From the NCBI GenBank assembly GCA_019054805.1, contig JAHQIY010000003.1, positions 5,704,001 to 5,768,000 of the forward strand: 64,000 nt of DNA. Direction: 5' to 3'. Below are positions 25,979 through 56,968 of the stretch, piece by piece. The position numbers were made by a program, and so were the translations under genes. This DNA comes from Brachionus manjavacas. Its lineage: Eukaryota; Rotifera; Eurotatoria; Ploima; Brachionidae. Every line of letters begins with the position of its first letter. Positions within the stretch are counted from its first letter, which is position 1. The notes below the pieces were generated by a model that had not been told where the DNA came from, made no database searches, and was given only the letters and a program-made list of their open reading frames with translations.

Positions 25979-26380
25979 GGCCTCAGTCCTATTAAACCGT
26001 TTATTGTATACTTTTTTGTATTTATATATTTTATTGTAAAAAAATATCGTTTTTCTCAGGGATTTTAACAAATATCAAGTTTTTAAAATTAATTTCTTCA
26101 AAATTAGTAATTGTTATATTTTTAATATTTAATAAATCATTTAAGTAATTTTTTTTTAATTTATTTTACCGCACAGCTGAAGTATTAAGTGAATCCACTT
26201 TAACACTGAACAAAATTCAGTTCAACTCCAAATGTGGCATCCTTTTACTTATTCATTAAAAAAAATTTACAAAGTTCACTCTATTCACTAAGTTGATTTT
26301 CGCACGACCATTGACTATTTTAAACATTTGAATTAAATCTCTTCTTGTTGTGCACCCTTACAAGTTCAGTAGTTCTTTAT

Positions 26381-27394
26381 TTAACACTCAAAAACCGGAG
26401 GGGCTTTTTAGAACCTTTTTGGTACTTCTTTTGCTTGTTGTTCCAAAAATTTAATTAAATATTAATTTTTTTTCATCAAAACTAAAATCAAAAAAATATT
26501 ATAAATAATTAATTTTGATTTTGATTAAAATATAATTTTATTTTAATGCAATTATATTTTAAAAAAGTATACGTTAAACCCACCCGGAGAGGGTCTTTTT
26601 GAACCCTCCATAAATATTGTCTTATAAAACAAAGACATGGCTAATTATGCTTTTGATTCCCAACTTTACTTAATTCCTAAAATTAATAATAATTTTTTGA
26701 ACCATGTCTCGATGAAAAGCTTTTGAACTTCGTAATAAATTGGATGATACCTAACCTGAAGTTTCTGATGATAATTTTAATGATTATCAGGAAAATTATG
26801 AATTTGATAATAATTTCAAATAAGAAATGGAAAAATCAAATCAACCTTTAACAAATTACCTGAATAAGAAGAAACTAATAATGAAAAAAATTGGAAAAAA
26901 GAGTTTATATTGATTAGAATGAATGACGGAGAAGAGACATGTCTCAGAGAAAAGATAAATTTCTAATGAGAAAGTTAAGCCTACAAGCTATGCTTAGCAT
27001 AAAAAAATGTGACCAAACAGACAGCATTTTGACTTGACCATGATAAATTTTTATTGAATTGTAACAATTGTAACCTGAAAGCTTTAGATCCTAATCTTTC
27101 ATTTACAAAAAGAGATATATCAGCTTTATCGGTGTTTATTATGCAAGAGGTGTTTTATGCCAAAAAAAAGTTTTCTCTCAAAGCCATGTGGTCAAAAATT
27201 TGGTCATGTAGTCAAGCTCGATTTTTCCCATTACGGAAAAAAGTTTACTTGTGATAAGGATTTATGTTTATTTAGGTAGGGGAGATGGTTTTTAAATCAT
27301 TTTATGCATCTTAAAAAAAAAAATATATTGAAGGGATTATTTGGACCCCTTCAGTACTTAACGTTTAAAAAAATTTTCGGTGTTTGAGTGTTAA
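26381..27394 (+). mobile_element. Short non-autonomous piggyBac-like element
   Basis: The element is bounded by TTAA on both sides, the piggyBac target duplication. Its terminal inverted repeats start CACTCAAA and continue A/C-ACCG, matching at 15 of 17 positions. Inside are decayed pieces of a piggyBac-type transposase. An acidic N-terminal-like segment lies at about 26,703-26,830 with several stops. A C-terminal zinc-ribbon-like segment with C-x4-C spacing, ending in an H-F-M-H, lies at about 27,160-27,300. The DDE core is missing, so this is a dead internal-deletion derivative of about 1 kb that would depend on a transposase supplied elsewhere. Confidence 0.72.
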
Positions 27395-28220
27395 TACTCG
27401 ATACGATGTTTAAGTTGGTCAAGATTTTCAGCTTTCCAGTTATTTTAGTTAATTCTTCTATTTTAATTATACAGACTATAAAATCAGAAAGTACCTGATT
27501 TTATTTTACCAAGTACCATTATATTTTACCAGTATATGTTTTAGTCGTATTTTATTAAATTTTCTAGAACCAAAAAATGTTTTAGTCAATTTTTTAATAA
27601 AAAAAATGTACTTTTTGACGTTTTATTATTGTTTTTATAGAAATTTTTAGAAAAAAATAAAAAATGAACAAAATTATTTTTTTTTAGCCATTCGAAATAA
27701 TCTTTTAACAACAACATCTTTATTTTTGTCTTTTTTGTCATTTTTTTTTGTTGTGATACTTCTTGTGATGGTGGTTGTTGTTCTAATGAGTCTGGTAGTT
27801 GTTCTGATGATGTATATGGTTATATAGATGATATTGATGGTTGTCCTGATGGATAAATTATCATGGTATCAATTTCAGGTAAATTGGGTGGTTAACTTCT
27901 CATCCACGCTGCCTTTGCTATCTTTGGACGTCCCCTTTTACGATTGCCTTAAATTTTCAAATCAACTTCGTAAGTGATAAAGTGATAATTAATTCTAATT
28001 GAATTAATTTTTGGTTTCATTTAAATTAATATTTGGTACTAACTAAAATAGTTGGACCTTATTAGGTACAAAAAAAATAATATTAGATATTAATAACTTA
28101 TTTTAGGTACTATAAAACATATAAGTACTAATTTTTTAATGGTTTTAAAATTAAATTTCATTTGATACTACATAAAATATATTTAGGTACTGAATAGAAT
28201 TTTTTAGGTACTAAGTAAAA
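27395..28220. repeat. Degenerate AGGTACT-containing repeats
   Basis: At least six copies of A-G/A-GTAC-T in an A/T background occur between 28,035 and 28,212, for example 28,035, 28,064, 28,105, 28,122, 28,185 and 28,206. Two outliers lie at 27,489 and 27,511. Spacing is irregular (about 17-60 bp), and the flanks resemble TTTTAGGTACTAARTAAAAT. It looks like a decayed tandem array. No gene is seen in this stretch. Confidence 0.45.
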
Positions 28221-28321
28221 TAAAAGCTTTATAGTAAACTATTCTTCAGTTCTTAAATTCAGGTCAAAAATCCTCAATCGTAGACAATTCTGATACATAG
28301 AAACTTAGAAACATAGATACT

Positions 28322-28615
28322 TAGAAAGAAGGGAAGCTCTTAAATGGACAACACTTGAAGTAAGGCGACAGCGTGGTGACTTAATCCAGATACATAAGAT
28401 CCAGCAAGGTCATGATGGGGTTGAGCTAATACACGGTTACAATAAGCATCAAATGGTCTTGACTGTCCAGCAGATTGAACAAGAGATAGTAGGTTGGGAA
28501 TAGAACGACAGCTTATAAGAAACTGTGCAGTACAACATAACTTTTTTACCAATAGAACGGCTAGTTGCAGGAACGCATTTGACAATAAAACTCGCAGTAA
28601 ATAAAATATCGACAT
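28322..28615 (+). mobile_element. LINE remnant, reverse-transcriptase C-terminal region
   Basis: The plus frame from about 28,330 reads through a segment with the LINE signature around T-T-L-E-x-R-R-x-R-G-D-L-I-Q, followed by a K-I-x-x-G. This is the conserved region after the reverse-transcriptase domain of CR1/Jockey-type LINEs. The frame then meets a stop near 28,500 and continues only as fragments. The catalytic part of the enzyme is absent. It is an old, broken copy. Confidence 0.6.
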
Positions 28616-30809
28616 ATTAAAAAAAAAGAATAGATAAACTTCTTTATAATATGGGAAGTTAAGCCTAACAAATAAAATGACTGTAGACTGTAAAAGTGGA
28701 ACGTCTACTGGCGTTTCCGCTCGTGATTTTCAATCTCCACAGCATAATTACAACTACTACTACTAGCTCTCAATTGGAAGCAATTCTGTTCCATTATCAG
28801 GTTTATGATCTTTCGGAACTTATTCAATATTTTTCGATTTCAGGTAGTCTTGAACTTTCTTGAATGATGCAAGGTCAGACCAAAACATTTTGATTGACAG
28901 CTTAAACAATGTAATGTTAAGAAATTCTTCTAAAGAAAAACACATTCCTAAATAGTTAAGAACTTCCCTTCTTAGTTTTTTATTCGCATCTGAATTTAAA
29001 TCCAAAATGCGTTAAAACATTTTCGAAGGGTTTCTTCATTACTTTATTTTTTAAATTTAATTTGTAAAAAAAAAAGAAAGAATTATTTATTAAAAAAAGT
29101 TTCACACTAAATATGAAGTCAAATTAAAGCTTTTATCAAATTTTAATGATCATCTTCAAAACATAAATATAAAAGAATATGAAGGTTTGAAATTTTTATT
29201 TTTATCTAATTTTTCTGCAAAAATTTTGTTAATGCAGAATTATAAACAATACTTGGTTTGCTTTACAAAAAAAATATGTATCTTTATTTAAATTTTTCAT
29301 TGTTTTTTCTTTTTTTTTTCAATTTAAGATAATTTTTGAGCATAATCATTGAAAATTGGCCACAAACTTCATTTCGTCATTTTAAATTTTAAATAACCCA
29401 AAAATTGGATTATCGTGTGTTAATTTCTGAGACAAAGACAACAAAATCATTAAATTTTGGTTCTTTTTTGCCTTGATAACTTTATTTTGTTTTTTATTTT
29501 TTAGAATACAAATCTAACTTTGATATTTTTTTACAAATGCGCCAACTTTTAGTATAAATTCATTATCATTGAATTTATTCAAAGTTCAAAAAATGCCTGA
29601 AATGAAATAACGAACATTTACTTATCTGAATAAAGAAGACTAGAAAACGTTTGTTGAGTATTAAAAATGGAATGAAACTCATTAAATGAAAAAACAGTGT
29701 TTGTAGTTGACTAAGTGTTAATGTCTGTATTGGAATAAAAATTATAAAATTCTGTTTTTAATTATTTTTTTATTCTAACTCTTATTGTTCTTCTCCTGAG
29801 AAGGAGAAGAAGGTTAATTAATTACAAATGAATAATATAAGATTTACTATCGTTTCCAAATTTGGATTTACGTTTTGAAAGGTCACAGTTTTGAAAGGTT
29901 TTGAAAGGTTTTTAAATAATTAATAAATTGCTAAAATTTAGGATTGTGAAATTCGTTCCAACTGGATATTTTAAATCCAGAAAGCTTAAATATCTTTTTA
30001 ACTATATGAAATAATTTAGTTTTCTAAAAAGTTAATTGGATTTTGCTTTAATTCAGTAAAATAAGTCTTCTATAAAATCCGCAATTATCTTCATTTTGTA
30101 CGCCATCAAAAAGCATTTTAATCAACTGGGCGATTACTTTGCAGAGTTTTTCATTTATTGAAATGATTGAATAAAAAAAAAAATCACAACCTCTTAATTT
30201 TTTTTCCTTTTTTTTCTTTGATAACCTTACACAAAATAAAATAAAAAACAAGATGTTGTTTGTTAAAAATTGTTTTTATTTGTAAAAACTTTTGTAAATT
30301 AATTTTATGAATTTATTTTCGCTCTGAGAAAACATTACCAGCTTTGGAAAGAAATTAAACGGGCCCAAATTAAGATCTTTTTTCAAAACCAAAATGATAT
30401 TCCAATCACAATTAAAATCCAAATAATTTAGTTAGAATAGAAAAATCTAGTTTAAAATACTAATCTAACTTCATTTATTTTGATTGAATCGAATAAAAGG
30501 TCTAATTACCATGGCATGCCAAAATCGCTATTTTGCAGAGTAAGTATATATTTTTGATAGTTGTGAAATGACAGATAATATTTTGAGCATGTTTATATTC
30601 TTCTGGCAAATCATTAATGGATGGTAAAAATTCTGGGGTTAGGGTATAGTATTTTTCTTAAAAATATCTCACGTGACTAAGTAACATGTCAGGTTCAATT
30701 TTGACGGTACTTTTCTAATATAGAATGGATCTTTTTAACTGCATGCATTTCATTTATTTAAAAGCGTGCATCACTCAGCAAGGATATGTGGTATAAACAT
30801 TAAGCCTAC
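28616..30809. other. AT-rich spacer without a recognised gene
   Basis: There is nothing here I can support as coding. A short imperfect repeat of TTTTGAAAGG occurs three times near 29,875-29,910. The spacer separates the LINE remnant from the broken C copy of the A/B family. I looked here for later exons of copy C and found none. Confidence 0.4.
29788..29811. repeat. Perfect short hairpin
   Basis: TTCTTCTCCT and its exact reverse complement AGGAGAAGAA flank the loop GAGA. The 10-bp stem with a 4-base loop stands out because its flanks are almost pure A/T. No T-run or gene end makes it an obvious terminator, and its role is unknown. Confidence 0.6.
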
Positions 30810-31043
30810 TTTTTCGAACCATTGACAAAGTTTATGAGTATTGTCTCGTTGCAAAGTAGCATAAACTTTCTCAAGGTTATCATGAGAAAATTTTTGTAAA
30901 AGTTCTTTTAGCTTTATAAGAGAAATAATCTATAATTTCTAATTTAACATTTCCCTTAATTCATCAACATTGGGAGTTTCTGGCATTAGACAATAATTTG
31001 GAAAGAATGGTAAAGCTGACAAAATTTTTAAAGAAGTTTGAAA
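30810..31043 (-). pseudogene. Copy C of the A/B family, broken two-exon remnant
   Basis: Two exon-like blocks match genes A and B. The first (31,043-30,960) parallels exon 1 of B, with L-K-I-L-S, L-P-F-F-P and P-E-T-P-N-V-D. The second (30,911-30,810, 34 codons) parallels exon 2, keeps an AG acceptor and GT donor, and ends with L-C-Q-W-F-E-K as B ends with L-C-Q-W-S-E-K. The exon 1 block has an in-frame TAA just upstream, no usable ATG, and no clean donor. No counterparts of the later exons were found downstream. The matching Lys-rich stretch 5' of the block shows the N-terminus decayed in place. It has the same orientation as A and B, so it is probably an old tandem duplicate. Confidence 0.72.
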
Positions 31044-32409
31044 TTTTTTTATTTATTTTTTACTCTTTTTTTCTTTCGTCTCTTAGGGATTATTTTGAAA
31101 GTAAAAAAAAATTATTTCGACATTTTAATAGTAAATCTTTATTAAGTTAACAATTGTATGCAAAATTTCTCAAGGAATTGATTACTCATTTTCTTCTTTT
31201 ATTCAAACCAAAACAAATGAAAAAAAAAATTGCAGCAGATAATTGGAATTTTTTTTAGATATTTCACAGTTTTTGTAAAATTTAAAAGTGAGCTTATAAT
31301 TAAGTCTTATATAAATATAAATAAGCTATACATTTTTGAACCCCAAAAAGGTTAAACATTAGTATTAACATTGTGTTTATATTGATGTGAAATGAGTAGT
31401 TTAAGATGATGCATTTTGTGTAATGAATTACTTTTTATCATACGAAAAAAAAAGATTTTTTAAATTTTAAAACTTTTTAAATAAAAAAAAAATAGTTAAA
31501 TTAAAAATAGGTTATCTTTTGATTTCTCGTATTTTATGTAAGCGTTTCGATACAGGTCTTGGCTTTAAGTTGATTTGTTAATTTTTCAATTTAGCTCATT
31601 CTTCTCTTATTTTTTAGTTCTTAAATTGGCAATATTTTTTTATAATCAAAAAATTTTATTTTTTTGATATTTAACGTCCAACTTTATAATGTAGGTTTTA
31701 AAAAGAAAATAATAATTTTTGTTAATAATTTTAGAAGTAGTAATTCAATGGTGTTGTGAAAAAATACTGATTTAACAAAAATGTTTCCTATTTGGAATAA
31801 TTAAATTTAAAATCAAAAGAATATCAAATAAAGTTGTTTATTTTAGTTTTATCAAAAACATATTTTTCACTATGTTGAAATTTATTTTGAGAATATTTTT
31901 AACTTCAATTTTAATTTTTTATAAAAAGAAACATTTTAGTTCAATTTGTACGGAATTTCATTACGCCTATTACAATAACTAATCTTCCATTAGACATTCT
32001 TTAAAAAGTGGAGGTGAAGTTCCTTTCAATTCGATTTTTTAAAGTTTAAAAGACTATTTTTAACGAAGAGATAAATAACTTTTATACAAATTTTTACAAA
32101 TTTTTTTATCAATTTAGGGATCAATTTTGAGATAAAAAGTAGTAAGATGCTGCTATCTTAGACACAAGTTTTTCAGCAAAAAATAGAAAATCTCGTTGGA
32201 TCCATTTTAAGATTAAATAAATGAGTAAAATTTTTATTATTTTGTTATAAATTAAAGAAAAAAAAATGTTGTTTTGCAAATAAAGTTATTAGTATATTTC
32301 AAAATTTTTGTTTCCACACATTCATGGTAAAAATACCTACCGAACTTAATAAAAATAAAAACAACAATTCATTTTGTTAAAACTTGATTATTAGTTTAAG
32401 TGAAAGTTT
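31044..32409. other. AT-rich spacer between pseudogene C and gene A
   Basis: I see no open frame with coding character and no recognised repeat. It includes the 3' flank of gene A, which ends at 32,410 on the minus strand. Confidence 0.45.
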
Positions 32410-35400
32410 TCATAAAGGCTTGAGTTCATCCATTATTAAATCAAATATGTAATTAATCTCCGGTTCCATCTCTACCATTAACTGCGGTTTTGACGAGTCC
32501 AACTTTCTTAAAAATTTAACATCATCTAAAAACACCGTGTCCAAATAACGCCTTTTAAGCTCGTTCAGCACAAATGTGACAGACTTGATCTCAACCAAAT
32601 CATCCTCAAACAACTTAATAATCTGATTAATAGTTGATTTTATTTGATTTAAATAGTTTTTCCCATAGGTTATTCTAAATACAAGATGATAACTCAAATA
32701 TTTTTCCAACATTCTAGATATTTCGTCCAAGTGTCCTGACAAAGGGTACAAGATAATTTCCTGATTTTCAAAATAAAAGACCATAAAAAAAATAATCGTT
32801 TCCAAGTCCTCCACTAAAGTTTTCGTAAAACCAAGCTCTAGTTTAACATTCTCAGTCCATGAAGTGTTCGCGTTTCTAAAATTAATCTCATTTGTTTGCT
32901 TCCGATCATTTATGTCATTCAAGTCTTGGTTCACTTTTTCCAAGCTTTTATAGATTTGTTCAAATGAAAAAAAAACTTTGCGTAACACCAATTCTTTGGA
33001 TTCAAATTTGAACAGATTTTTGTCGATTTTTTTTGTTATACTCAATAAGTTTGATTTCGGGTATCTTCGAGTTAAAGGCTGATCAAAATCGGGCTTAATT
33101 TCATTTATTTTATCATGTATTAACAAAGCTGTCTCGGTGATTAGTTCACTAATTCGTGCCAAAAATTGAGTGTCTTTTAGAGATATATTTTTGTGTATGC
33201 ACATAAATTCGCCCAAATCCTTGATAAAGTCAGACACCAACAGCAAATCATATTCACCAAATTTTGAATTGAGCTCCAAAGTAAGACTATCTATGTTTCT
33301 AAACATTCCACGATTTGCTATTCTTTCTACAGCTCTAATGCAGTTATTATTGTAATCTTTGAATATGGTTTCAAAATTTTCCAAAATTTTGTCTATTTCC
33401 AACATTGTGTTCGGATTTCTTTGAAATATATGAAAAGCTAAAGACAAGATAGTCTAAAATTACAAAAAATAAGGGTCTTTTTTTTAATTTTACATTATAT
33501 TACCTCATATGTTTGAACTATTTCGAATAAATAGTTAAGTTTGTGCAGTTTATTCATCTTTTTCTTCCAATATGATGAATAAAATTTCTGAAATAATTTT
33601 TGCTTTAGAAGTTTTGACAATTGATATCAGCATTTAATTTAAATTTTTTTTTCATTAAAGATAATAATTTGATAAATGAGGTAAAATACACAACTAAAAT
33701 GTTCAAGTATGTAAGTGTTAATATCCAAGAAAATTGCTTAGGTTTAGATCAAGTTTGAAGCATTTGTTAAAAAGACAAGAATCGCTTAAAATTATTTAAA
33801 ATTTAATTTATTTGGAAAATACTTTTTTAATCAAATTACTATAAATTTATTAGGAAAATAAATTATTTTCCAAAACAAAATTTGACTCTATCAAAAAATG
33901 ACGAAAATTTTTAAAATTATTTGATAATAAAAGAGTTTCTTTTTCAGAACTGTGGTCAAGTGTATACTTTAAATATATTATACAAGATTAAAGCAAGATT
34001 ATTTTTGAAAAAAAAGTGACAAATTAGGTTGAGAAAGTCAATTAAAATATTTTCAGAATTTTTTACAAATTATTTAGTTACACTAATAAGACATAATGAA
34101 TTTTCGGAATAAAGAACAAAAACAAAAATTTAAAGTCGAAACAATTTTCTTTTTTTAGGTCTAAAATAAATTCTGAAAAATTTATCAAATGGTTAAAAAT
34201 TTCCATGATCTAAATTAAGTATATGAAGTAACTCTGCAATAATTATTTGCCAATATATTTAATGCTTTGCAGACTTTCAGGTTTTTTTCAGAGACTTAAT
34301 TTGGGTGATTCAAATTTTGTATAAGACTGATAAAATATAGTATTTTTTACGTAATTTTTTTTAAGCCTGAAAAAAAAGATATTTTTAAATTTTTTTGAAA
34401 TTTTTTTTTTTTTTAAATTATAAACCTGTAAAAATGGGGCTATAGTAAATGATTCATCTAGAGATACTAAAGTCAATATTGTCGGATTTAGCGAACGGGT
34501 TTTAGAGAACTAAAACACTTTTATTTTCTTTTTTTTTTAACTATTTAAAAAAACAAAAAGAAACAAAGAAAAGTGGGTTCAAACGAAGGCTTATCTGAGT
34601 AAAATGAACTTTTAAAAGTTGAAAGTTGAAGAGTTAAAAATGCAAAAATCTGGAAAAGCTTCACGAATCTTTTAGCTAAAATTTAGGCGTTCAGGTTCGA
34701 AATTTTTTTCTCGCATTGATATTTCCTAAATGGAAAATTAATCTATTCTAATCTGGCACATTTTTGGTATGTATTCTCCGGCTGCTCATAACTTCCTTAA
34801 AGACAAGCCTAAAAGAAATATCTTCACATCAAATGATTCAATTTTTTCTCCTCTTTAAATTCACATGTAGATCATTGGGAATTATTAGAAATTAATAATA
34901 TTATTTAATAAATTTATAATTATTTAATTTATTTCAAAACGCATTTTAAAGAATTTAATAAAATCGAAATTTTATTTCCGTCAAAGTTCAATTTTTTTTT
35001 AATTTTTTTATCTAAATTTTAAGTGAAGTGATACATTCCTTTTTCTCATGCTATTACAAACTAAACTCAAACAATTGAGTTAATTAATCAACATGCACCG
35101 TAGAATAAAAGTTTTTATTTTTTTTTGCAAGTAAAAATTAAAATTAAAATTAAAAAGATTAAAAATGACCGATACCTGTAAGTATGTATTAATATTTGTT
35201 TTAATTTTTACAGATTTATTTAAAAAAAATTTAATAAATAATTTTAATAAAGCTTAAATTAGATTTCTGTCTCATTGTGAAAAATTTAATCGTAAAATAA
35301 ATCCATAATGATTAGTGCGAGACTTTTGACTCAAAATATGATGGTTTATATCATTAATATTAATAATCATTTTTTAAATTTTTCTCTTAATCTCATAATT

Positions 35401-36038
35401 TTCTAATCAGAACCTTTTAATTATTTATAGTTAATTCAAAGCTTTGAAACATTATGACTTAATAAAATTGCCAAAGTTATTTGTTTATTTCTTAGTTACC
35501 AAAGTAATGGTTACTTAATGTGAGAAAAAAAAATCTTAATATAGAACATAAATAAATTTTCAAAAATTTAAAAATATTTCTTGTTTAGATAAATTTAGAA
35601 CAAAATTACTTTGATAGTCATTAGGTGATTTATCAATGTTTCATTTTTTCTGTGAACTTCACCGGATACTTCAGCATCAGATAGAAGATCAATTATCTTA
35701 AAAAAATTTAAATTTATTTTTATTCAATTAAGTTATACATAATTAGGTAAAGTAAAAAATTTAAATCATTGAAATCAAATTATGAACAGAAAATTTAAAC
35801 ATACCTTCTGACTCCATGGGCACAAATCGTCTTTACGATGAAAAATAATAGAAGCATCGGGTTCTGAATCTCGTGCAAAAACAAGCGAAAAAGAAGTGGC
35901 AATATCAGAAATCTAAATCAAAACTAGATAAAAAAAACAACTTAAACAAATGAATCATACTTTATCAAAGTTTCGCAATATCAATGGATCTGAATAGCAA
36001 CAAATAAGGCGATATAAAGTTTTTGCTTTTTGGCTCAT
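32410..36038 (-). CDS. Family gene A: unrecognised helical protein, 5 exons
   Basis: I do not recognise this protein. Comparison with gene B and splice sites give five exons: 36,038-35,961, 35,912-35,805, 35,696-35,610, 33,587-33,504 and 33,453-32,410. All introns are phase 0 and GT-AG, giving 466 residues from the ATG at 36,038. Exon 2 ends L-C-P-W-S-Q-K. Exons 3 and 4 together equal the single exon 3 of B (I-I-D-L-L... then K-F-Y... ending T-Y-E). The large last exon gives 347 residues of charged, leucine/isoleucine-rich sequence, predicted mostly helical, with no signal peptide or membrane helix. Intron 3 is about 2 kb while the others are 48-108 bp. Codons are AT-rich like the surroundings. 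No stops interrupt the joined frame, so it looks functional. Confidence 0.72.
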
Positions 36039-38830
36039 TAGCTTAAAATGTGTTAACTCCTAATCGTTTTAATATTTGAAAATAGCTTCGATGATTTTGA
36101 AGTTTAATTTGAGTGACATAGGTTGATTAAAAATATGCTCAATCTATTACGTAAAAAATAACCATAAATAATTGTTCATTGATGCGTTTATTAAAAACCA
36201 GAAATTAAAATTTTTAACAAAACAAAATTGTTTAAAAATTTTTTTTAACTTTCTCTCAATCAGTTTATTAAAATTTTCTGCCTGGAAATTTTTTGTCTTT
36301 ACTAGACACGACTCTATTTTAATTATTCTAAAAATACACTCAAGTATTTGAATAAGCAAATTTAGTTTGAAATGAGCCAAACTTTAAATCCAATAATTTA
36401 AAAATTTGGAAAAAATCCAAAAAGAAAATTAAATAAATAATTATTTCATAGAAATCAATTTTAACAAATTTCTACAAGAAAAACGGTTTTTTGAAATTTC
36501 AAATGAATTACGTGTTCAATTAAATCTTTTTTTAGTACCTAGGAGTTTTGTGAGTAGTTTACTTTTTCAAATAAATAATGTATAGCTAAACTATTTGAAT
36601 CGAAAGTTTGCTTGTTAGGTTAAAGAATTTTTCACCATGGTAATAACTATACTTATCTATTTGCTAGACGTCAGTTTTTACATAAAAGTTTTTTTAAACA
36701 TTATTCAGGACAATATTATTACCTTAATTTTAAAATCGGATGACTTAAATTTTATAAAGATACTGATAAAATATCAAAATTATCAGATATACATTCAAAT
36801 TCAAGGAGTCATCTAGTTCACGATTTGGTAAGAATTATCCTATGCTGATTGAAAAATATTAAAAATATCAGAAAATTTTAAAATACATTTATAATGATAA
36901 TTTTTTGAAGTAGCTGAAATAGGATTTAGAAATTATCTTGATTCAAATTAAAAATTTTTATGTGAATTTAGTTTGGAAGATTCTTTTGTTAGGATTAAAC
37001 TGTTCACACAAAGATTGATAAATCCATTCATTAAAAAAATAATTAGATATATCTGTTGACAAAAAATTTTAAAGGCAAAAATTTTATTTCAAAACTAAAA
37101 CAAAATTCGTTGTTGATCAAATTTTCTATTTTGAGCATTGATAAAGAAAGTATAAAAAATTTCAAAGCATTTTATTTTTATTCATTTCTGAAAGATTCAA
37201 TTTTTTTTTTTAGAGAACGAAAAAAATTTCACATTCTAAACATTTTTTATTTGCTTTTGAATTTAGCAATAATTTGGTAATTTTAGTAGAAAGTGAAATA
37301 ATTAAATTTAAAAGATTTTTTCTTTTTAAATCAATAAATTGTTTAATTAAAACATGGTTTTGGATCAAAATTGCTTTGTTTTTAAGTTAAATTTTATGCC
37401 AACATTCAAATTTTTATCATATTTAAAAAACAAAATGTTCAATTAAAAATGAATTTAAATCATACATTTTTTTAAAATATTAATGATTTTTCTTTAATTT
37501 CAATAAAACTATAAATATAATTAACCACAATTGAATAAAGATAAATTAATAATTTACTTAGCACTAATTTATAAAAACATTAATACATTCCTAATTACCA
37601 AACGAAAGTAAGGGATGTCTTTCGATGTTGAAGTCTTTAGTGATGCCTATCGATCGCTAATATAATAATAAAAAAACACAAGCAAAATAAAGAAAAATAA
37701 TTAATTAAGAAAAAATAAAGTTATGAAATACTTGAAATAATTTTGACGATGTAAAATAAAAAAGAATATAAAATTATGATTACTCTTATTTTGAATTTGT
37801 AAATTATATTGAATCATTTATGTTTGTAATTTTTTTGTAATTTTTAATAATTTAACTCGTGGACCATTATCAACTTTTTATTTATTTTTTTTATTTTAGT
37901 TCTATAAGAAAGAAGATTTATTAATTTAATAGATTTATAAATCGTTTTTTAAATTTAATAGATTAATTGAAACAAAATCGGATTAAAAAGATTGAGCCAT
38001 TTAAAAGTAAATATTCAATTTATTATCTTCTTAAGGGGTTATTGAAATTAAATTCGAAATAAAACAGGATTAATTAACTAATATTATTCTATACTAAAAC
38101 TCTAAAAAATTAGTAAGGCAGTGTTTATGGATAAAATCTAATTTCCAAATCTGAAAAATAATTAATGACTCAATTTTTTGTTGAAATAGGAATATTTTGA
38201 TGCATTTAAATAGCATAGAACAATATCCTAAAAAAATAAAAAAAGAAAATTTTGTTCATAAGAAAAATTTTGCAAGTAAAAATTGCAATTTATGTCTTAA
38301 TTTAAAAAAAAAGAAAATTTGGTCAATTTTAAATAAAATTAAAAATGGGACTTTCTGTGACTGAGAGAGAGACTCCAAAAAGTGATTTCTTAATTAACGA
38401 AATCACCAATAAAAATCTTCAAATACGCCAATGAATGTGGTCAAGTCCATGCACAGAAAAATTGGACTTGATTGGGTTTTTTCTTTAGCAAAATAGATCC
38501 ATTTTATTAATAATATAACTTATCTATCTATTTTAATAACTTAGTTTTTCATTGTTTAACTTTTTGCTATAACTAATGCATCATCGGTTACTGAGAACTT
38601 GATTCTTTTTGGTACTTATCTAAATCAAATTATTCAAAATTTAAATCTTAAATTAGAAAACAAATTTAATAATTTACTTAAATAAACTCTACAATCTTCA
38701 CCATTTTTATTTTAAAACACTGTTTTTGTCCAAATTTGTAAATTTGCGCAATATAAAATTTCAGTAATTTAATGATGAAAATCGCATCTTTTAATTATAT
38801 TTTTAAATTACCGTATCCTTTCGTTCGATT
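36039..38830. other. AT-rich spacer upstream of gene A
   Basis: It includes the presumed promoter of gene A on the minus strand. I see no supportable coding region. Open frames near 36.2 and 37.1 kb are Lys/Phe/Asn-rich low-complexity translations of A/T runs. Confidence 0.45.
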
Positions 38831-39127
38831 ATGCTGCACCACAAGTTAAGACACGCTATTAGACCATGCACCAAAGTATATCTCGCCCATGCTATAATTT
38901 TGTTAACTTTGAGCGCATGCTCTAATAGCGTAATCACGCGTTAAGGTCCGCATGAAACACTAAAAACCTTAGGTTTAATGCGTCATCAAGATACGTTTTT
39001 AAAGCAAAAAATAAAAATATAAAAATGAATTTTCTAATTTTTTTCATTTCTTAATCTTTGGTGCAGCACCAAAAGCATAATTCAAAAAATTATTTTTTAT
39101 TTTTTGCCTTAAAAACGTCTCTTGATG
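38831..39127. mobile_element. Foldback/MITE-like element with nested inverted repeats
   Basis: Two inverted-repeat pairs sit side by side. Arms at 38,853-38,869 and 38,915-38,931 match at 16 of 17 positions. Arms at 38,984-39,016 and 39,095-39,127 match at about 31 of 33 positions. A third inverted match, around TGCTGCACCA, links 38,831 with about 39,062-39,070. The element has no coding content. Such multi-hairpin structures are typical of foldback elements or MITEs. The transposon superfamily and the exact ends are not determined. Confidence 0.6.
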
Positions 39128-40510
39128 GACTGACAAAAAAACTACATATGATGACAAATAAATTAATTAACTAATAAAATAATTATTTGAGTGACAAAAA
39201 TACTTTTTTGACTAATTAATTATTTTTACAACAAATTACTGATTTTGAGGTCACAATAAAAATCAAAATCTTGAACTATAGCACCAAAATCAGAAGGAAG
39301 CTCCAGACGATTATGACAAACCGTTTTGTCTAAATCTCATCATCAAGCTAGAGTCAACTACGAGAAAACGTCACAATTTAAGTTCATTCCTTACAATATT
39401 AGAGAATTAAATTACTAAATAGCTTTTCTTTTCTTTTTTCCTTATTCACTCCTTGTGAAGCATAGGGTCATTACTTTTGATTTCCACTCAAGTCGAATTA
39501 AATAGCTTAATTAGAACTAAGTGAAATAAAATAAAAATGAATAAAATTTTGTCAGTGCAAAATCAAATCATTTAAAATCATTATAAAATAATCAAGACTA
39601 AAAAAAATATTTTTGCGATTTTTTACATTTTCGGCTTTAAGTTTCAAGGTTAATCATTAGCTAGTGTTCATATAAGACCGATTAACACTTCATTTATTCA
39701 AAAATAAAATTTAAATTTAATTAATTTTTTAATGAAAAGAATATCATTAACATTTAGCTTAATTGTTTGTAAAAAAAAATTTAATCAAATATTTTACATT
39801 TTTTATAACAAATCTGTAATAATAAAGTAAATATTATTAAATATTGAGAGCTTAAATGTAGAAAATTCTAAATTTGATCTCTTGATCGCAAAGCTATTAA
39901 TTGATCTCGAATAAAAATATCCAAATGTTTTTTCTCCATTAATTGTTTTTGACCATAAATCGATTAGATTAATATTATTCCTTATATTAGTACTTTAACT
40001 TCTAGAGTCATTTTTTGCCAATTGAACTTGAAGATTTTTAGGTGAATTAAAAAGAAAATTTTTATCATTTTTATCATTTAAAATTCTACGCTGAAAAGCA
40101 TAAAAATAAATAAATAAAAAATATAAGCTACTCCAAGCAAGGCTTGGGATGATTAAAAATTCGTCTATGGTAGCTACTTTTCGCATTTTGCTGATTTAAT
40201 TTGTATCAATAGATAGATGATTTTATGGTGATTTTTTTAGGTCATATCAGCTCTATCATATTCCTCTAACTTCATATCAAACCAAGTTATCAAGCATTTA
40301 TATATTCAAGTCTTAGTACTTCAGTGTTGGTGACGTTTTTGGTACTAAGGTATTGATCCAGATGGTTTTTGAAATCATTGATAGAATAAGAGTTGATATG
40401 AACAAAACAACATCTTTAATAACAACAACAACAACATTAATATACGACAAGATCTCGTAGGACGTTCCATTTCGGTTTAGTTCGATGCCGAGTTGTTTAA
40501 AAATCCCAAA
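39128..40510. other. Spacer with degraded repeats
   Basis: No gene is supported. The less AT-rich stretch at about 39,280-39,480 may be another degraded retrotransposon piece, but no motif is clear. A short (AAC)n run lies at 40,421-40,435. Confidence 0.35.
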
Positions 40511-40658
40511 AAAAGTCCAAGTCCAAATTTTTTTTTTAATTTGCAAGATCAGGCTTCATTTCAAAAAATTTATGTACTCTTGAGATGACCATATTCAAAA
40601 TTTTAAAGCCTGGACTTGGACTTTTGAAAGAAAATTAAAAAAAAGTCCGGACTTGGAC
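40511..40658. repeat. Inverted repeat of AGTCC-AAGTCC
   Basis: AAAAGTCCAAGTCCA at 40,511-40,525 is the exact reverse complement of 40,611-40,625. A further AAAGTCCGGACTTGGACT follows at about 40,642-40,658. A related motif (AAGTCCAAAT and GGACTTTTT) occurs at about 11,680-11,701. It may be a small MITE or the terminal part of one. Confidence 0.5.
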
Positions 40659-40819
40659 TAACGAGTGAAAACTTAAAATCGAGACGAACTTTAAGTATCA
40701 TTTGCTATTTTAATTTTTTTTAAATCTCTATCCATATTCTTGTAGTAAATTTCATTTTAAATTCGACAAAAAAAAACTATTCAATTTGAATTAAAAATGA
40801 TCAAAATAAATTCATCTAA

Positions 40820-41765
40820 AGAAGAGGCCCTAAGAATTCGCATGTACGCGTTTTTTTAACGAAAATAGATCACTTGAAAAGATATTCACTGTGAGGCATT
40901 TTATGGAAGATAAAATTTCAAGGAGTACTGTTCACCGAATTTTAAAGTTTAATTTGTTTACGTAGTGAATATTTTTCACCAGAAAGGAAACAAGGACCGA
41001 GAAAAATTACTAAAGTAAAGCTCAACAAGCTAAAAAAGGCTTTTGATCACAAAGTAAACATCAGTCAGCGTCAAGCAGTCAGAGAGTTTGATATAAGCCA
41101 GCAAATGGTCTCAAAATTGTTGAAGAAGCTTCAAATAACACCTAGAAAAAAGATTAAAATCCCTGGCCGAACCGAAACGCAAAAAAAAGTAGCTAGAGTT
41201 AAATGTAGAAATTTATATTTAGAAAATCCATATATTTCCTGGATTTTAGACGATGAATCCTATTTCACTCTCAGTCATGGTAAAATCAATGGAAATGACT
41301 TATTTTACTCAAGTAACATTGCTGCAACACCAGCAAGTACAAAATATACACCAGTTATTAAATTTGAGCAGAAATTACTTGTTTGGTTGTTCATTTCTGA
41401 GAGGGGTATTTCGGCGCCAATCATACGAGAAAGTAGACTTGCAGTCAACCAAACTATTTAGACTTTATAAAGCGTGGAGTCATTCCGTTTATTAAATAGA
41501 CGGCAACTGTAAGTTCTGGCCCGACTTGGCGAGCTCTCATTATGCCAATACAGTGGTCAACTACTTGATTGACCAAAATATCAAATTTGTGCAAAAATGC
41601 GAAAACTCTGCAAATGTGCCAGAAGTACGACCAATTTAAGATTTTTGGTCCACTTTAAAAGGGGAAAGTAAATGAAAATGGCTGGAGAGCAAGACTTAGA
41701 TGAACTAAGGAATAAAATACGACTAAATGAAAATTCCAAAAAGAAACTACTCTGAGGAATTTTTC
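40820..41765 (+). pseudogene. Dead Tc1/mariner-type transposase
   Basis: Decayed Tc1/mariner element. Helix-turn-helix remnants lie at about 40,880-40,960 (S-R-S-T-V-H-R-I-L-K) and 41,010-41,135. A catalytic segment with I-L-D-D-E-S lies near 41,246. The second catalytic region, W-P-D-L-A-S-S-H-Y-A-N, is near 41,520. The third, E-V-R-P-I-stop-D-F-W, is near 41,625-41,655, and there the usual Glu codon (GAA) is TAA. The spacing from the second Asp to that position is 37 residues, as in DD37E-like elements. Stops and at least two frameshifts separate the blocks, so no enzyme can be made. No clear terminal inverted repeats were found. Confidence 0.78.
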
Positions 41766-42850
41766 CAAAAAATCTTTTACATCAATATAGTTTTGAGAAT
41801 CAACTTTGAAATTAAAAATCTTAAAAATTTAAAAATAATGGCTTTTGACCAGTTTGATTATTGAATCATATGAGAAAAAAACACAAAAGAGATGAGCAAT
41901 AATCAAAATAAGACAAAATAAAAGTTTTGAAAAACTGCATTTTTACTGATGCTGAAAGATAGAAGAGTTTTTTTTATTCTGAATAATTTTTTGTTAACAA
42001 TTAATGAAATACTACAAGCTAGTTTTAAAAAAAAATAGATCATGATCTATTTTAAAGCCTAAAACTTGACTATTGTTGCTCTTTTAATTGGTTACTATTC
42101 AAAAGAATCAATTCAAAAATTATCTGATTATTATTATTTTTGTTTATATAAACTTTTTAAGATTAAATTTAATTCAACAACATTTGGATACCTTTAGTCA
42201 ATACTAATAAACAAGTCTGTAATTATTAAAAAAAGACTTAAATATAAACAATTTAATATTATCAATTTTTAATAATATTAAATAATCTATCCGAAAACAG
42301 TATGATTTTGTACAAAATTTATAAAATGATTATGATGATTTAAAATTAAAAACATTATATTTTTGAATTTGTAATTAATTTGTATTATAATAATTTAAAT
42401 TTTAAAATTTTTTGAATAAATGAAGTTTTGATCAGGTCATCATTATTAGTTACTTAATAATGTTGATTGTGGGCACTAGCCTTTTGATTAGACTTGGATT
42501 ATTAAACTGCTTCTAAATCCCCATTTGAGTGACTAATTGTGGGTCCTACTAAAACACTCACCCCTCATTTTTGAAAAACCTGACTCCCTACTGACCCCCA
42601 TTTTTCTTAAAGAGAATTTAACGAGCTTTCTAAATATGTGCCTAGTTTTTTTCCAGGAAGTATAATTTTCGAGAATTTCAAATGATTTTATAATAATTGA
42701 GAAAATTTATTTTCAGCCCTCTTATTAGTAAATTTTTGATTTAATAAAGTGAGAATGTTTTTTGGATTAAAAATTTAAAATCGGATGCTTTTCTAAAATC
42801 AATCTTTTCAATAAATAACGATAAAGTTGTTAGCTTTTTGTCTCTAGCTA
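41766..42850. other. Spacer between mariner relic and LINE/MULE cluster
   Basis: No gene is recognised. The segment 42,480-42,660 is less AT-rich and contains several CCCC and CCT runs, but no frame gives a recognisable protein. Confidence 0.4.
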
Positions 42851-42854
42851 AGAT

Positions 42855-42945
42855 TAAATTACTAATTCATGAAGAGCTGTATCATTTGAATGTCCAGGTC
42901 TAAAACCATGCTGAGCATTTAAGTAAACATGATTAATCTTATTGA
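42855..42945 (-). mobile_element. LINE reverse-transcriptase fragment
   Basis: On the minus strand this short frame reads N-A-Q-H-G-F-R-P-G-H-S-N-D-T-A-L. This is the conserved block at the start of the reverse-transcriptase domain in CR1/Jockey-type LINEs. It joins the 3' end of the MULE transposase remnant directly, with no spacer, so one element probably inserted into or recombined with the other. Confidence 0.65.
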
Positions 42946-44655
42946 CACCCCGATGATATGTTTGCACATGTAATTTTTCAAAAACTCCGGACAGCTGCAA
43001 GTACTTTTTTCCCAATCGTGGTTTCTTGGAATACAAACACACCATATACCAAATTGAACATTTTTGAATGTGTCAAATGAATTGAATTTCGCATTGTCAT
43101 ATCGATGAAATTCTTCAGAAATCTTAATTACATCTTTAGCTGGTAAATAATACATTATTTCATTGTCAGTTTCTTTTTCAATCACTTGTTTATTTAACTT
43201 TGCCCAATTGTAACCATATGTCCAATCAGAAAGTTTTATTGTCGTATTTTGCTGAAAAACTTTTGCATTAACTATGGATGGGTTTCGTTCAATTGACCAT
43301 TTTTTTACAATCGAAAGTGCAACAACAGTGAATCTAGAAAGCACTAAACGATCACGGAGTGTTTCTTCATCTTTAATTACACGATTTGTTGCTTCAAGTG
43401 AATCATTTGTGCTTGGAGTAAATAGTTGCAATCCTTCGTACCAACAATCTTTTGTCATCAACCATTCACTTTGAAAGTATTGTTTCATTTTTCCACTTCT
43501 TCAAAAATAGCTGTGTTGCTGTTTGGAAAATAGCCTCATTTCTGGAAATTTGAAGTGTTTCAATATCTTCCATCATTTCACGTTGAGAATCCTTGTCTTC
43601 CACTAATGAAAGTTTTTTATCAACACATCTTTTCATATGAGCCCAACACATCACCATATTTTTGTCATCGCCAAACACATTCGTAAAAGCATTTCTAATA
43701 GCTTCAGAGCCATCTGCAATCAAAATCAAGTTTTCTGTCTGAATTTCGAATCCACTCGAACTGGCACCTTGTTGAATACTTTTAAAAACAAATTCAAAAT
43801 CTTTTTGTTTCTCATTGGAGCACACTGCGAAACCATAAGGATGAAAATGTTTATCCATATCTGTTGTACCAACGATTAGACATGGAAAGCCTTGCCATAT
43901 CAACTTATAAGTTGCATCTGCATGAAGTCTGTTTGAAATTGTTGTATTTGATAAAAGTCTTTTTGTTGTGATAAAAAATCTGAATTTTCTGCCTTCTTCA
44001 TCTATATCTTCATCATCATCAATTTCATCGTCATATATGATTTCATAATTTGATACCCATGCTGTGTCATCATCATCTGGTATTGAATTGTATTGTTGAC
44101 GCCAACAAGTCCCCCTAAACTTATAGTTGACGTACCATATTCTTTTTTTTTTATAACGATAAATAATTCGCTAATTGCTGTTTTGTTGGTACTGGTAATG
44201 ATTTTTCAGCTAAAATTTCCAGAATGGGCTTGGGTTAAATTTTCAATTTAAATAATTCACAGATCTCTTTTTTTGTCTCTTCTTTAATTCCTGCTGTTCG
44301 TCGATCTTCGTGGACATGATCATCATTTGTTGTAAACATACTAACATCATCACAATTGTTGTGATATAACAAATTTATTGTTGCTGGACATTGTTTTGCA
44401 CGTCGTTTCACTTGATTGCATCTATAATACACGCGTTTCCCTTCACTTGTATTGTTTGTCATCGAAATACTCCAAATGCCATCACTTTTGATTTTTTCCA
44501 TTGCTTCGTTCTTGTTGTTAAATGTACATAATGGAGTCCATTTTCTTCTTGTTTGTTTGGATCTTTTTTGACAATTTCTGTTTCCACATATTCTGTATCA
44601 TCAGTATCTGTATCGCTTTCATTTGTGCTACTCGTTGACTTGCCATTTTATGTAT
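42946..44655 (-). pseudogene. MULE transposase with SWIM zinc finger, frameshifted
   Basis: Mutator-like element transposase. In minus-strand order there are four parts. An acidic N-terminus (about 44,650-44,560) comes first. A FLYWCH-like zinc-finger region (44,510-44,235) follows, with Y-Y-R-C-N and a later H-V-H. The MULE DDE core (about 43,975-43,466) contains T-T-D-M-D and A-D-G-S-E-A. The C-terminal part carries a SWIM finger at about 42,970-43,000 (C-S-C-P-E-F, then C-K-H). At least four frameshifts break it, near 44,640, 44,555, 43,960 and 43,480, and a stop closes the zinc-finger frame at 44,235. The copy is therefore dead, although the protein text is well preserved, which suggests fairly recent decay. 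Its 3' end abuts a LINE fragment. Confidence 0.82.
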
Positions 44656-44737
44656 GACGTAAGTTTTTTCATCGTATTTGTATTATACAAAATGTACCGA
44701 TACATAGTAAAAAGTACTTAATGGTAGCACTGTTAAG

Positions 44738-45015
44738 CAATTAATGTTGTTTTTTTTTAAATTAATGTTGTTTTTTTTTAAATTAATGTAAATTTTTTTA
44801 AATTAATGTTAACTGCAAATTTATAATGTTCAAAAAATTTAATTAATGCAAGTTTGATATAATAAATGCACACTTAAAATAATAAATGCACGTTTAAAAT
44901 AATTATTGCTTGTCCAATATTATTAATGTTCTTTCAAAGAAATTAATGCTAAATATTATTATTGTTCAAATCAATTAAATTAATGCTCAAATCAACAAAA
45001 TTAATGCTCATTTAA
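44738..45015. repeat. Degenerate tandem repeat of ATTAATG units
   Basis: About ten units of roughly 20-26 bp, each containing ATTAATG or ATAAATGC followed by a T- or A-rich spacer. The first two are near-identical (AATTAATGTTG then a T run). The array lies just 5' of the MULE transposase remnant and may be its subterminal region. It could instead be an independent minisatellite. Confidence 0.55.
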
Positions 45016-45422
45016 ATATAAGTCAAAAAATTATGTAAAAAAACAAATGATTAAAAAATAGAAAAAAGTAAAAAAAAGTTTTGATTTGATTTGTTCAGGT
45101 AATTTTAAGATAACCTCCTTCTTAAAATAAAATTAATTAAAAAAAAAAATTTTATTTAAAATGTTCTCTTAATTGATTAAAATTTAAAATCAATCTAAAA
45201 AAAATAATTTCTATTTCCAATTCAAACTGAAATTTAAGTTTAAGCACCATTAAATCAAACTAAAATATTCTACTGCTTTATCTGATGCAATTGTATAATT
45301 GAGCCTCTAGCAGCTGTAAAAAAATGGTGAATATTATCATTAAAATTGAAAAAAATCGCTTTAACTAAGGCGTTTTTTAATAAAAAAAACATTACTAAAT
45401 TAAAATTGATAATTTTAATGTT

Positions 45423-47911
45423 TTAAAGAAATGTAAATTTATTCTTAAATTTCGATAAAGCCCCATCCATGGCATCATTAAGTGCATTTTCTATTGAGTC
45501 CGGAAGGAATTCGATTTTGTCTTTGACACGATCATTTATATAAGATTCGCAGACTAAATACAATAAATCAGGATATCTTTGTTTGAATTCAGTCAAAAAC
45601 TCTTTAGGAGAATTCAATTTTAATTTAGTCTGATCCAAAAGATCAATTATCTTTTTGGCTAAAACTTTAAGTTTACTCAAATAGTTAACACCGCAAAGAA
45701 TTTTGTACAGTGGGTGAAGATCAGAAAATTTATCAATAATTCTAGTACACTCGTCAATGATGTCCAAAATGGGATTTAAAACCTCATCTTCATTCTTGAA
45801 TAAAAGAACGCCGTAGAATAGAATAGTTTCCAAATGCTGAAATATTCTGCCGATTGTTGTCACTTCTTCAAATGCTGTCATTTGTTTGTCTGCAATCTGA
45901 GCTGCCAAAAGTGGTCGGCTCTCTACTTTCTGAATATCTTCTTCATTTGATGAATACGCACGTGAATTAACTTGCTCAATTTTCAAATTTTCAAAATTGT
46001 CATCAATTTTTTCAACTGATGAGAAAAATTTTTCAAATGAATTTATGGTTCTTTCGACTATTTGAGATTGATTTTCGAATTTTGATAATTTGGTTCGAAT
46101 GCGCTGAGTTATAGATAAAGGCCCCCATTTGCTTTGTCTTTTAAAATCAGGTATGCTATCACCAAATATTTTTTTTAAAAAACCCGACACATTTTCGATA
46201 ATGTCTTGGATAGATTCGGCAATTAGAGTGACCTTTTCTAAATCTCGGGCATCGATGTTAAAAAATCTGCAAAATACTTCGATTATTTGAGAAATAAACT
46301 CGGCAACTTTAACTACGCCTAGTTCTCCCAATTTTTCATCTATCATTCCCAAAATGGCGTTGAACTTGCTCAGGATTGCGATCCCGCAAAAGGTCACTGT
46401 CAAACAACCACGTCCACTGTATCCCTGTACCTGATCAATCGCTTTATTCACGTTTTCAGTAATAGCTTTCATACAGTCGGGATTTTCTTGGAACATGACA
46501 AAGCCAATGGACATAACACTCTTTGATTTAAAAAAATTGAATTTTTTTTCATTATATTTCAAAAATTGTCAAATTTTTACCTCATAAATTTGAAGAGAAT
46601 TGAAAAAGAGATCCATTTCTGGTGATGAATCAAAACCGGCATTTTGAGCGGCTTGGTAAAATTTTTTAATTGTGTCAAAATGTGTTATTACATTGTTTGT
46701 TTGTTCATTTCCTTCTGGCTTGTCATTAATATTTGGCAAAAATGTTACTATCTTAAAAATTAAAATCAATTTTATTTTTTAATTTAAAAAAAAAAAAATT
46801 AAAAAAATTAATTTTGTGTATGATAATTTTTACAAAGAATGTTTCATGATAATTTAAAAAAAACATGTATACAATTATTATTTGTTTTTTAATTAAAAAT
46901 TAAGCAACCATTAAATTTTAAATTTTCGATAATTTTAATTTAAAAAATATTCTTTTAAAGTTTATTTAACTTAATCGGACAGTGTTAACCTTCTGAACTT
47001 ATATGATAGATTTAAGATTTTCATGTTTAGCTAAGGTTAATGATGAAATTATAAAATAATTGATCACATAGTAAAGATATTTTTCAGTATTCAAATGCTT
47101 CACATACAGCAATCAAATTCTATTTCGAATTTTTGCCAACAATTTTATGCAAAAAAAATTAAAAATTCGCCTACTTGATTCGAACATCTTTGTAAAAATT
47201 TACTTTATTTTTACAATTTTTAAGGACAAAATCTAACAATTTATCCCAAAAAACACCATTTAAATTGAATAAAAATTATTGAAAAATAATTTTTTTTTAT
47301 TTTTTTAGCTTAATAATCAAAAAAGTTCAATAAATTGGGTTCCGAATATAAAAAAATTTGCATTGTGCAAAAATTGTTTTTTAAATCGTTCATGGGGAAG
47401 GTTCAAAAATATACCCCTTACTCTAAATTTTCAATTAAGCATATTCATATTTAAAACTAAGATCATCAAAATTCAGATGGTGCCGTTACCTAGCTACGTG
47501 CGTACCTAATGTATTACTTAAATTAATCTAATAGAATATAGATTGTGTTAACTATTTTAAAGATTTTTTAGTTTAGTAATTAAAATGCAATTTCATTTTA
47601 CCTTTTCAGACCATTGGCATAAACTATGGCTATTGACACGATCTAAGACAGAAACATCAGTTTCATTTGGATCTTCACTATTAAATTTGTCTAATAAATC
47701 TTTAAGCTTTGAATTTAAAAAATAACTACAGACGATAGTTTGTTTTTAATTTTCAAAATACTTGATCGATATTTGGAGTATCTGGTTTGGGTTCATATTT
47801 TGGAAAGCATGGTAAAATTGACAATACTTTTAATGCACTTTGAAGTCCTCCTTTTTCTTTTTTTGTTTCTTTTTTAGAAATATCATCGAAGTTTTCATTA
47901 TTTTCTGCCAT
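45423..47911 (-). CDS. Family gene B: unrecognised helical protein, 4 exons
   Basis: Paralogue of gene A, function unknown. The exons are 47,911-47,762, 47,706-47,602, 46,751-46,581 and 46,520-45,423. All introns are phase 0 and GT-AG, giving 507 residues. Exon 1 starts M-A-E-N-N-E and contains a Lys-rich stretch then L-P-C-F-P-K-Y. Exon 2 ends L-C-Q-W-S-E-K. Exon 3 ends L-Q-I-Y-E, parallel to A's V-Q-T-Y-E. The last exon (365 residues) aligns with A over its whole length, for example F-Q-E-N-P against F-Q-R-N-P and L-S-I-T-Q-R-I against L-S-I-T-K-K-I. It is predicted mainly helical, with no signal peptide, membrane segment or recognised domain. Introns 1 and 3 are 55 and 60 bp. Intron 2 is 850 bp and carries one copy of a 151-bp repeat. 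Confidence 0.78.
47209..47359. repeat. 151-bp dispersed repeat, copy 1
   Basis: It matches 49,499-49,649 at 148 of 151 positions in direct orientation; the three differences lie in the first 40 bases. This copy sits in intron 2 of gene B. No coding content or inverted ends were seen. Confidence 0.85.
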
Positions 47912-54702: not shown

Positions 54703-55934
54703 TAATTAGTATCCTTGGGTCGGTCTATTCGATCTCCTCGTAAGACGAATTGGAGCAGCTTTTTATTCTCCTTTTTAACTTAAACGCTCATGGTTAAGTT
54801 AATCAACTTTCCAGTGATATCGACAAAGATGTCTCTATATCTCAAATTGCCATCGTCTTACCAAGTCATACTGCAAAACCCAGTTTATTAAAAGTTTAAA
54901 TAATGCTTTTTTACAATTGAAAAATATTTTAGACATTTATTGTTTTTACTGAAAATCTCACCCTTAAAATTAAAAACCTAAATTTTCAATTTTATCATGT
55001 TATGTTTTCAAACTGTTCTCCTTGTTAGTAAATATTAATTTTTTTAAAAAATAAAAGCAAAAAATAAAAAATTTAAATATTAGAAAAAAAAATTAAATTA
55101 AATGATATTTATAATGAAATGTTCGAAAAAATGAAACAGAATGACTCGGTCGTGTCCCAACATTTATCTGACTTACTCAAAAAGGTCTTTTTAACATTTA
55201 GTCAATTAAAAAGCTCGGGGTGTGGATGATGTTATGGATGGAATCATAGATCAGTTTTAGAATAGATCAAACTGTTGAATTTGAAAAAAACAAACATTCT
55301 TTTGATATTGGTTATAGAAAAATGAGTCCATTGAAGAAAAATAACGAAAATTTACTATATTAAGGATTAGTAATAGTTTCCTAATGTTAAAGCATTTTAT
55401 TTATTCTTTAAAAAATTATTAATAAATCTAATTAATTCAGTAATCCAATAACTGTTTGAACAAAACTAAAAGACTCTTTGATTTTTTGCCTCATTAAACA
55501 CATTTAATTACTAAATTAGTCTTAAATTGACTTTGAGAATTTTATTTCATTTTAATGCCATAAGCCATGTTTGTCTGAGTGCAAAAAGTGTCCTTAATAG
55601 CATTTTCAGACCAAAGTGCCTGCAATAAACACGTCTGATAACCCAATTAGACTTTTATTTTGATTTTTCACCGGGCTTCCAGTTTGATCATTTGACCATA
55701 ATAAGATTTGAATCAGAAATTATGTTTAAACTAAGCAAAACTCTAAAATAAATGTACTTAAATGATAAACAAAATCTTATCATCAAATAGCTTTCGTCAA
55801 AATTTGCTGAATTCGAGTCTATCTATTTTTTTTGCACAAAATTTTACCAAAAAAAAAAATCATTAATTTCTATTCTAACAAACAACTCATCTAACAAAAT
55901 AAAAATTTCAAATTTTAAAATTTTCTAAAAAATA

Positions 55935-56968
55935 ATGAGCATTCACCAAGATCCAGTACTGAGTAAAATTTTCATCTATCCAATAAAGTCCTTATCAGGC
56001 ATAGAGCTCGACCAAGCTTTGATTTCCGCTGACGGAATCATGCATCCCCATAACCACAACGTAATTGATAGGTTGTAATTTTCAAATGAAGTTAGGTTTT
56101 GTTTTGAATTAAAATTTTTCAGAAAATGGATGGTAGTCGATTCTAAGCGCTCGTTTTTAAGCCAGCGAAAACTGCCCAAAATGACTCTAATAAAACCAAA
56201 AGTCTGCCATGACCATATTGTTTTGGCAATGCCTGGAAAAACAGAAGCTAAATTTTTAATTAATTATAAAGGAGAATTGGTTAAGTGTAGGCTTTGGTCA
56301 GATTATTTAGACTGCTACTCGTATGGCATCGATTCAGAGATTAGCAAATGGCTAAGTGATGCTTTGGAATGTGAAAATCTCGACCTTGTGTGTTTAATGA
56401 AACTTACAGCGCGACGTGACGGTGATTTTAGCACTTTTATGGTTTTGTCCGAAGCTTCGTTGCACGATTTAAATTCTCGCCTGGCTAAAAAAGTATCAAT
56501 TGTTAACTTTCGTGCCAATTTAGTAGTCAAAAACTGCTCGTCTTATGCCGAGGTTTTTCTAGCAAATATTTGAAGAGCTTCTTTTCAAGTAATTTTTTTT
56601 CATAAAGGACAATTGGCGAAAATTTATAATTTCACAAGTTTCTTTTGTTAAAACAAAAAATTGCATTCGGTAAATATTTACCTTAACTCTTTTTTTTTAA
56701 TTTTAAATTTGGGTTCAAGATGCGTAATGACTACGGTAGATCCTCAAAACGGGGAGAAAAGTCGGGACCAAGAACCCCTGAAGACTCTCAAAGCGTAAAA
56801 TAATCTTAAAAAAATAAAAATAATAAAAATCTTAATTTATTTTAAAGATATCGTTTGGATAAAGAGTTGTACGGCACCAGTCCAATGTTCGGAATGTATT
56901 TTGAATTAGAAAATTTAAATGAACCTCAAATGGTATCCAAAGGAGATGTCATTTTGGTCTCTTATTAA
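55935..56968 (+). CDS. mARC-like MOSC-domain molybdenum enzyme, 5 exons
   Basis: Exons 55,935-56,071, 56,123-56,552, 56,608-56,669, 56,720-56,794 and 56,848-56,968 join in frame across GT-AG introns of 50-55 bp to give 274 residues. The N-terminal MOSC_N beta-barrel starts with I-Y-P-I-K-S and has D-R-K-W-M at the exon 1/2 junction. The MOSC domain follows: N-F-R-A-N-L-V-V, then A-E-D-N-W across exons 2/3, then C-I-R-C-V-M-T-T-V-D-P across exons 3/4, E-P-L-K-T-L-K, and a final G-D-V-I-L-V. In characterised mARC proteins a Cys of that C-x-x-C region ligates molybdenum. mARC enzymes reduce N-hydroxylated compounds with cytochrome b5 and its reductase on the outer mitochondrial membrane. The usual N-terminal membrane anchor is absent here. 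An in-frame TAA nine bases upstream supports this ATG, though an upstream exon cannot be excluded. Confidence 0.88.

Follow-up and report, generated by a model that had tools for sequence, protein, structure and literature searches.

The question raised by the window analyzed here, a 64,000-nucleotide stretch of contig JAHQIY010000003.1 of the rotifer Brachionus manjavacas (GenBank assembly GCA_019054805.1, positions 5,704,001 to 5,768,000, forward strand), is what is encoded by two genes on its minus strand, A and B, that resemble each other and, according to an earlier note made from the letters of the sequence, no known family. Our leading answer, to which we would give slightly less than an even chance, is that A and B are live paralogs of a small animal family with a dead copy, C, close by, that the family arose through local duplication at the DNA level, and that its products are soluble helical proteins for which a role as cytosolic scaffold or adaptor is the likeliest.

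The evidence that carries this answer begins with homology. BLASTP aligned residues 23–428 of A with residues 47–464 of B in 437 columns, 26% of them identical (E 2e-43), and the homology begins at the end of exon 1 and continues through exon 4 with matching exon borders (exons in these comparisons are numbered after B). The small exons are homologous by themselves, as exons 1–3 alone (A 23–119 against B 47–142) scored 115, a value that none of 2000 shuffles reached (maximum 59); the models of A and B therefore support each other, except at the start of exon 1 of A. Since homology supports only the end of that exon, it is the least certain part of the predicted gene models. Synonymous sites between A and B are saturated. 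Being adjacent homologous copies with matching exon borders, A and B form a tandem paralogous family, and the earlier claim of a local cluster of homologous minus-strand genes with a broken copy beside them was borne out by the BLASTP match and by the remnants of C next to B and A; the gene models behind that claim are good ones.

Gene B (45423–47911, minus strand) has four exons (47911–47762, 47706–47602, 46751–46581, and 46520–45423, stop included) encoding 507 amino acids, and gene A (32410–36038, minus strand) has five (36038–35961, 35912–35805, 35696–35610, 33587–33504, and 33453–32410, stop included) encoding 466. The spliced frames are open over all 507 and 466 codons, and GT...AG borders are present in all seven introns, the three of B (55, 850, and 60 bp) and the four of A (48, 108, 2022, and 50 bp). 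Because the length of each exon is divisible by three, all seven introns are in phase 0, as the earlier note had stated, although this uniformity carries little information because three intron positions are shared by descent. The last exons lie in open frames of 381 (B) and 347 (A) codons, lengths that are not expected at the local composition, where the chance of a stop-free frame is, per frame, ~3e-14 for 347 codons and ~5e-15 for 365 codons.

A conserved exon plan had also been claimed, and while the borders do match, the two plans are not identical, as A has one intron more. This additional 2022-bp intron (33588–35609, minus strand) falls inside exon 3 of B in the A–B alignment, between the two Lys of TIKKFY (after TIK). 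The motif L-C-x-W-x-x-K described for the end of exon 2 is found in all three copies, in the forms LCPWSQK (A), LCQWSEK (B), and LCQWFEK (C).

Pseudogene C consists of remnants of exons 1–3 that are closest to B; it was correctly recognized as a broken copy, but it extends over about 30470–31082 (minus strand) instead of 30810–31022, its last piece (30568–30470) being a weak match. C is 56% identical to B over 84 compared codons and resembles B (score 253) far more than A (score 60), with each score above those of all 2000 shuffles. C contains an in-frame stop, lacks a start where B starts, and has a first donor without GT, and its exon 3 contains a frame change and a stop. Its exon 4 was not found in 26001–30475 on the minus strand, where none of six alignments scored above the highest of 60 shuffles. 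C is a dead, incomplete copy, more like B than A. Between B and C the nonsynonymous divergence (dN) is 0.37 and the synonymous divergence (dS) 1.01, a dN/dS of ~0.36 from the small sample of 84 codons, which suggests that the protein was under constraint while the two diverged, for much of that time. Since noncoding stretches still part the exon remnants, C would stem from copying at the DNA level rather than from a retrocopying event, and we infer that local DNA-level duplication, with introns kept, gave rise to all three copies.

The size of the family was addressed by searches of the organism's own genome (114,169,980 bases in 61 contigs). The exon-4 proteins of A and B each gave two matches at E<=10, namely A and B only. 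Exons 1–3 of B gave seven: three at B, three at C, and one, with E 1.01, whose frame we take, by eye, to belong to a basic helix-loop-helix gene. No copy beyond A, B, and C was found in these searches, which had been advised in the earlier note and which scored the best candidates only, so that diverged copies could be missed. A homeodomain search of this genome gave 134 matches (150 of 174 candidates scored), which mark it as that of an animal. In a comparison with the ParaHox layout of B. manjavacas described in PMC13161344, three loci chosen for their spacing proved, by eye, to carry homeobox genes of other classes, and of 16 more loci with partial matches, 11 yielded a readable domain, none of them Cdx-like by eye, and five yielded none.

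The proposal that the family matches none already known was examined in profile libraries, the PDB, prokaryote genomes, and viral contigs. Pfam gave no family above its curated cut-offs for the whole A and B proteins or for exon 4; for exon 4 of both genes NCBIfam had nothing above cut-off (a single match, to B at E 0.12, is taken as chance) and PADLOC nothing at all. Rfam at gathering scores gave no match in the window. The PDB held no sequence at E<=10 for either exon-4 protein or for the exon-4 profile, and this profile yielded 267 pattern matches in prokaryote genomes and 62 in viral contigs, none of them a relative. A profile search of the PDB with a four-row alignment of units from exon 4 returned 21 sequences at E<=10, led by the designed helical protein 8tl7 (E 3.9e-6); we set these aside as reflecting the composition that designed helices have. 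A literature search, with terms not drawn from the proteins, turned up no title on this gene family. Within the searches made, the assignment of A and B to a putative new family stands. A rival explanation places A and B, as diverged members, in a known and widespread family of helical proteins that escaped detection since the profiles hold only two sequences, and we regard this as possible but doubtful. Helical proteins lose sequence signal fast, A and B already share just 26% identity, and two-row alignments (effective number of sequences, Neff, about 1.5 to 1.7) have little power; set against this is the lack of any family above cut-off in Pfam (whole proteins and exon 4) or NCBIfam (exon 4) and of any PDB sequence at E<=10 for exon 4.

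An origin by domestication from a mobile element or virus is very improbable. In its favor are the transposon remains that lie between A and B. At 42919–44597 (minus strand) several frames contain pieces of a MULE transposase (E 4.6e-10) and a SWIM domain (E 8.8e-7), along with a weak, sub-cut-off FLYWCH match, and a frame at 40946–41461 has a weak, sub-cut-off IS630-type match and is presumably of Tc1/mariner type. However, the exon-4 profile found no relative in the viral contigs, and the best PHROG matches of exon 4, phrog_23081 for B (E 0.0035, function unknown, not listed for A) and another for A (E 0.012), are to different families. Also arguing against domestication are the introns shared by descent and the detection of three copies only. 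Conceivably, the transposon remains contributed to the duplications.

As to what the proteins are, AlphaFold2 models were obtained for exon 4 and for the C-terminal bundle, and both are mostly helix, in keeping with the helical proteins predicted earlier. The C-terminal bundle of B (45423–45887, minus strand; mean predicted local distance difference test score, pLDDT, 60.1) has its counterpart in A at 32410–32829 (minus strand), as placed by the A–B alignment, and in the model this last bundle looks like a generic four-helix bundle. Foldseek, run with the C-terminal model, gave a best E of 0.71, and the fold matches tied in score across unrelated proteins, which deprives them of evolutionary meaning; neither this search nor the profile searches, both of which the earlier note had proposed, gave a clear match to a well-described family. 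The highest 19-residue hydropathy means (1.77 in B, 1.30 in A) indicate no clear membrane span, and no signal peptide or catalytic motif was seen by eye in A or B. The products are probably soluble helical-bundle proteins. They would be mostly alpha-helical and about 470–510 residues long, with a short N-terminal region bearing the LCxWxxK motif followed by helical bundles, the last of them four-helix, and their location would be cytosolic. The default role for a soluble helical-bundle protein is the binding of other proteins, and by this default we guess, with rather little confidence, that A and B are cytosolic scaffolds or adaptors.

Several points weigh against the reading of A and B as live members of a small family of soluble proteins. 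The model covering all of exon 4 is poor (mean pLDDT 40.9) and the C-terminal model, at 60.1, only fair; the hydropathy peak of B at residues 181–202 leaves a membrane-associated helix possible; and nothing in the results gives a clue to function or points positively to a binding partner. The query with exons 1–3 of B missed exons 1–3 of A at E<=10, from which it follows that the genome search was blind there to copies as diverged as A. Finally, both genes might be conserved-looking relics that are not expressed. We consider relics very unlikely, in view of the long intact frames and the seven of seven intact splice-site pairs, unlike the state of C, and A and B are presumably expressed.

Another suggestion is that the C-terminal bundle is a four-helix bundle of the RPW8, MLKL N-terminal, or HeLo type and that A and B work at membranes, in cell death or immunity. 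This suggestion, which we rate as far-fetched, has behind it the four-helix form of the B model and a sub-threshold Pfam match to RPW8 (PF05659) in exon 4 of B (E 0.0059, 16.7 bits against a curated cut-off of 30.4), with the spliced B protein scoring 15.8 bits. Neither A nor B reaches that cut-off, and no RPW8 match was obtained for the homolog A in exon 4 (E<=10) or the whole protein (E<=1), searches in which the HMMER filters drop most weak matches. The Pfam scans list no MLKL N-terminal domain (PF22215, curated cut-off 27 bits) in either A or B. In the genome itself, an exon-by-exon search in six frames with MLKL_N came up empty at E<=10, and RPW8 had two matches, neither at A or B; we take their frames, by eye, for a coiled-coil protein (the better match, 18 bits) and UPF2, and from the look of these frames both were read as chance. 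Fourteen control genomes gave two RPW8 matches and one MLKL_N match, all below cut-off, and so provide no positive control. Foldseek and VIA-align, queried with the pLDDT-60 bundle model, returned generic helical matches, with no MLKL or RPW8 chain among the best 50 of 263 Foldseek matches (E<=10) or the best 50 of 999 VIA-align chains, although this excludes nothing. A and B also differ from RPW8, MLKL, and HeLo proteins in having no kinase, NLR (nucleotide-binding leucine-rich repeat), or other partner domain by Pfam. With one sub-threshold match that is absent from A, and with failed profile tests, we dropped the RPW8/MLKL assignment.

Least probable of the readings weighed, and only marginally below the last, is that A and B are a new animal family of tandem four-helix bundles that arose by internal duplication and act at membranes like the MLKL and RPW8 cell-death bundles. 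An internal duplication in exon 4 was not established. The first and last parts of exon 4 of B align with a score of 74, above all of 1000 and then all of 10000 shuffles (maximum 73), which do not keep helical periodicity. In A alone, 40 of 1000 shuffles were as good, and in the cross comparisons 93 of 1000 (A first against B second) and 778 of 1000 (B first against A second). Comparing the middle or N-terminal part of B with the units, or the N-terminal part of A with exon 4 of A, gave scores no better than chance. When the profiles of the two exon-4 units were compared, P was 0.054, and for four other pairs it was 0.059 to 0.17.

The preferred reading, live paralogs of a small family beside a dead copy, has much in common with the orphan tandem gene families of animals, in being a small local cluster with strong divergence, a pseudogene near intact copies, and no recognized domain. 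Orphan families this small are common in animal genomes and, unless its expression or function sets it apart, the A/B/C family is one of many such cases. Should it prove restricted to a single animal lineage, the family, with two intact genes and one dead gene that have an exon plan in common, would be a clean small case of orphan-gene duplication, intron gain or loss, and death. In rotifers, editing by CRISPR has been reported (PMC10395877).

Other likely genes in the window were noted on the plus strand. A 761-codon open frame at 23693–25978 contains domains of the SUEL lectin (E 2.1e-9) and CUB (E 5.8e-5) types, and a membrane span and a C-type-lectin-like region were made out in it by eye; the G+C content of 24001–26000 is 0.459, much above most of the window. 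A series of frames at 59242–62124 resembles, by eye, a Rho guanine exchange factor with a pleckstrin homology (PH)-like part; the two frames scanned, 60530–60880 and 61024–62124, had no Pfam match above cut-off. A likely MOSC-domain gene occupies 55929–56573, where the frame at 56079–56573 matches MOSC_N (E 1.2e-10) and MOSC (E 4.4e-5) and the preceding frame (55929–56078) was joined to it by eye. A 383-codon open frame at 51652–52803 matches rhodopsin-type receptors (7tm_1, E 1.7e-13).
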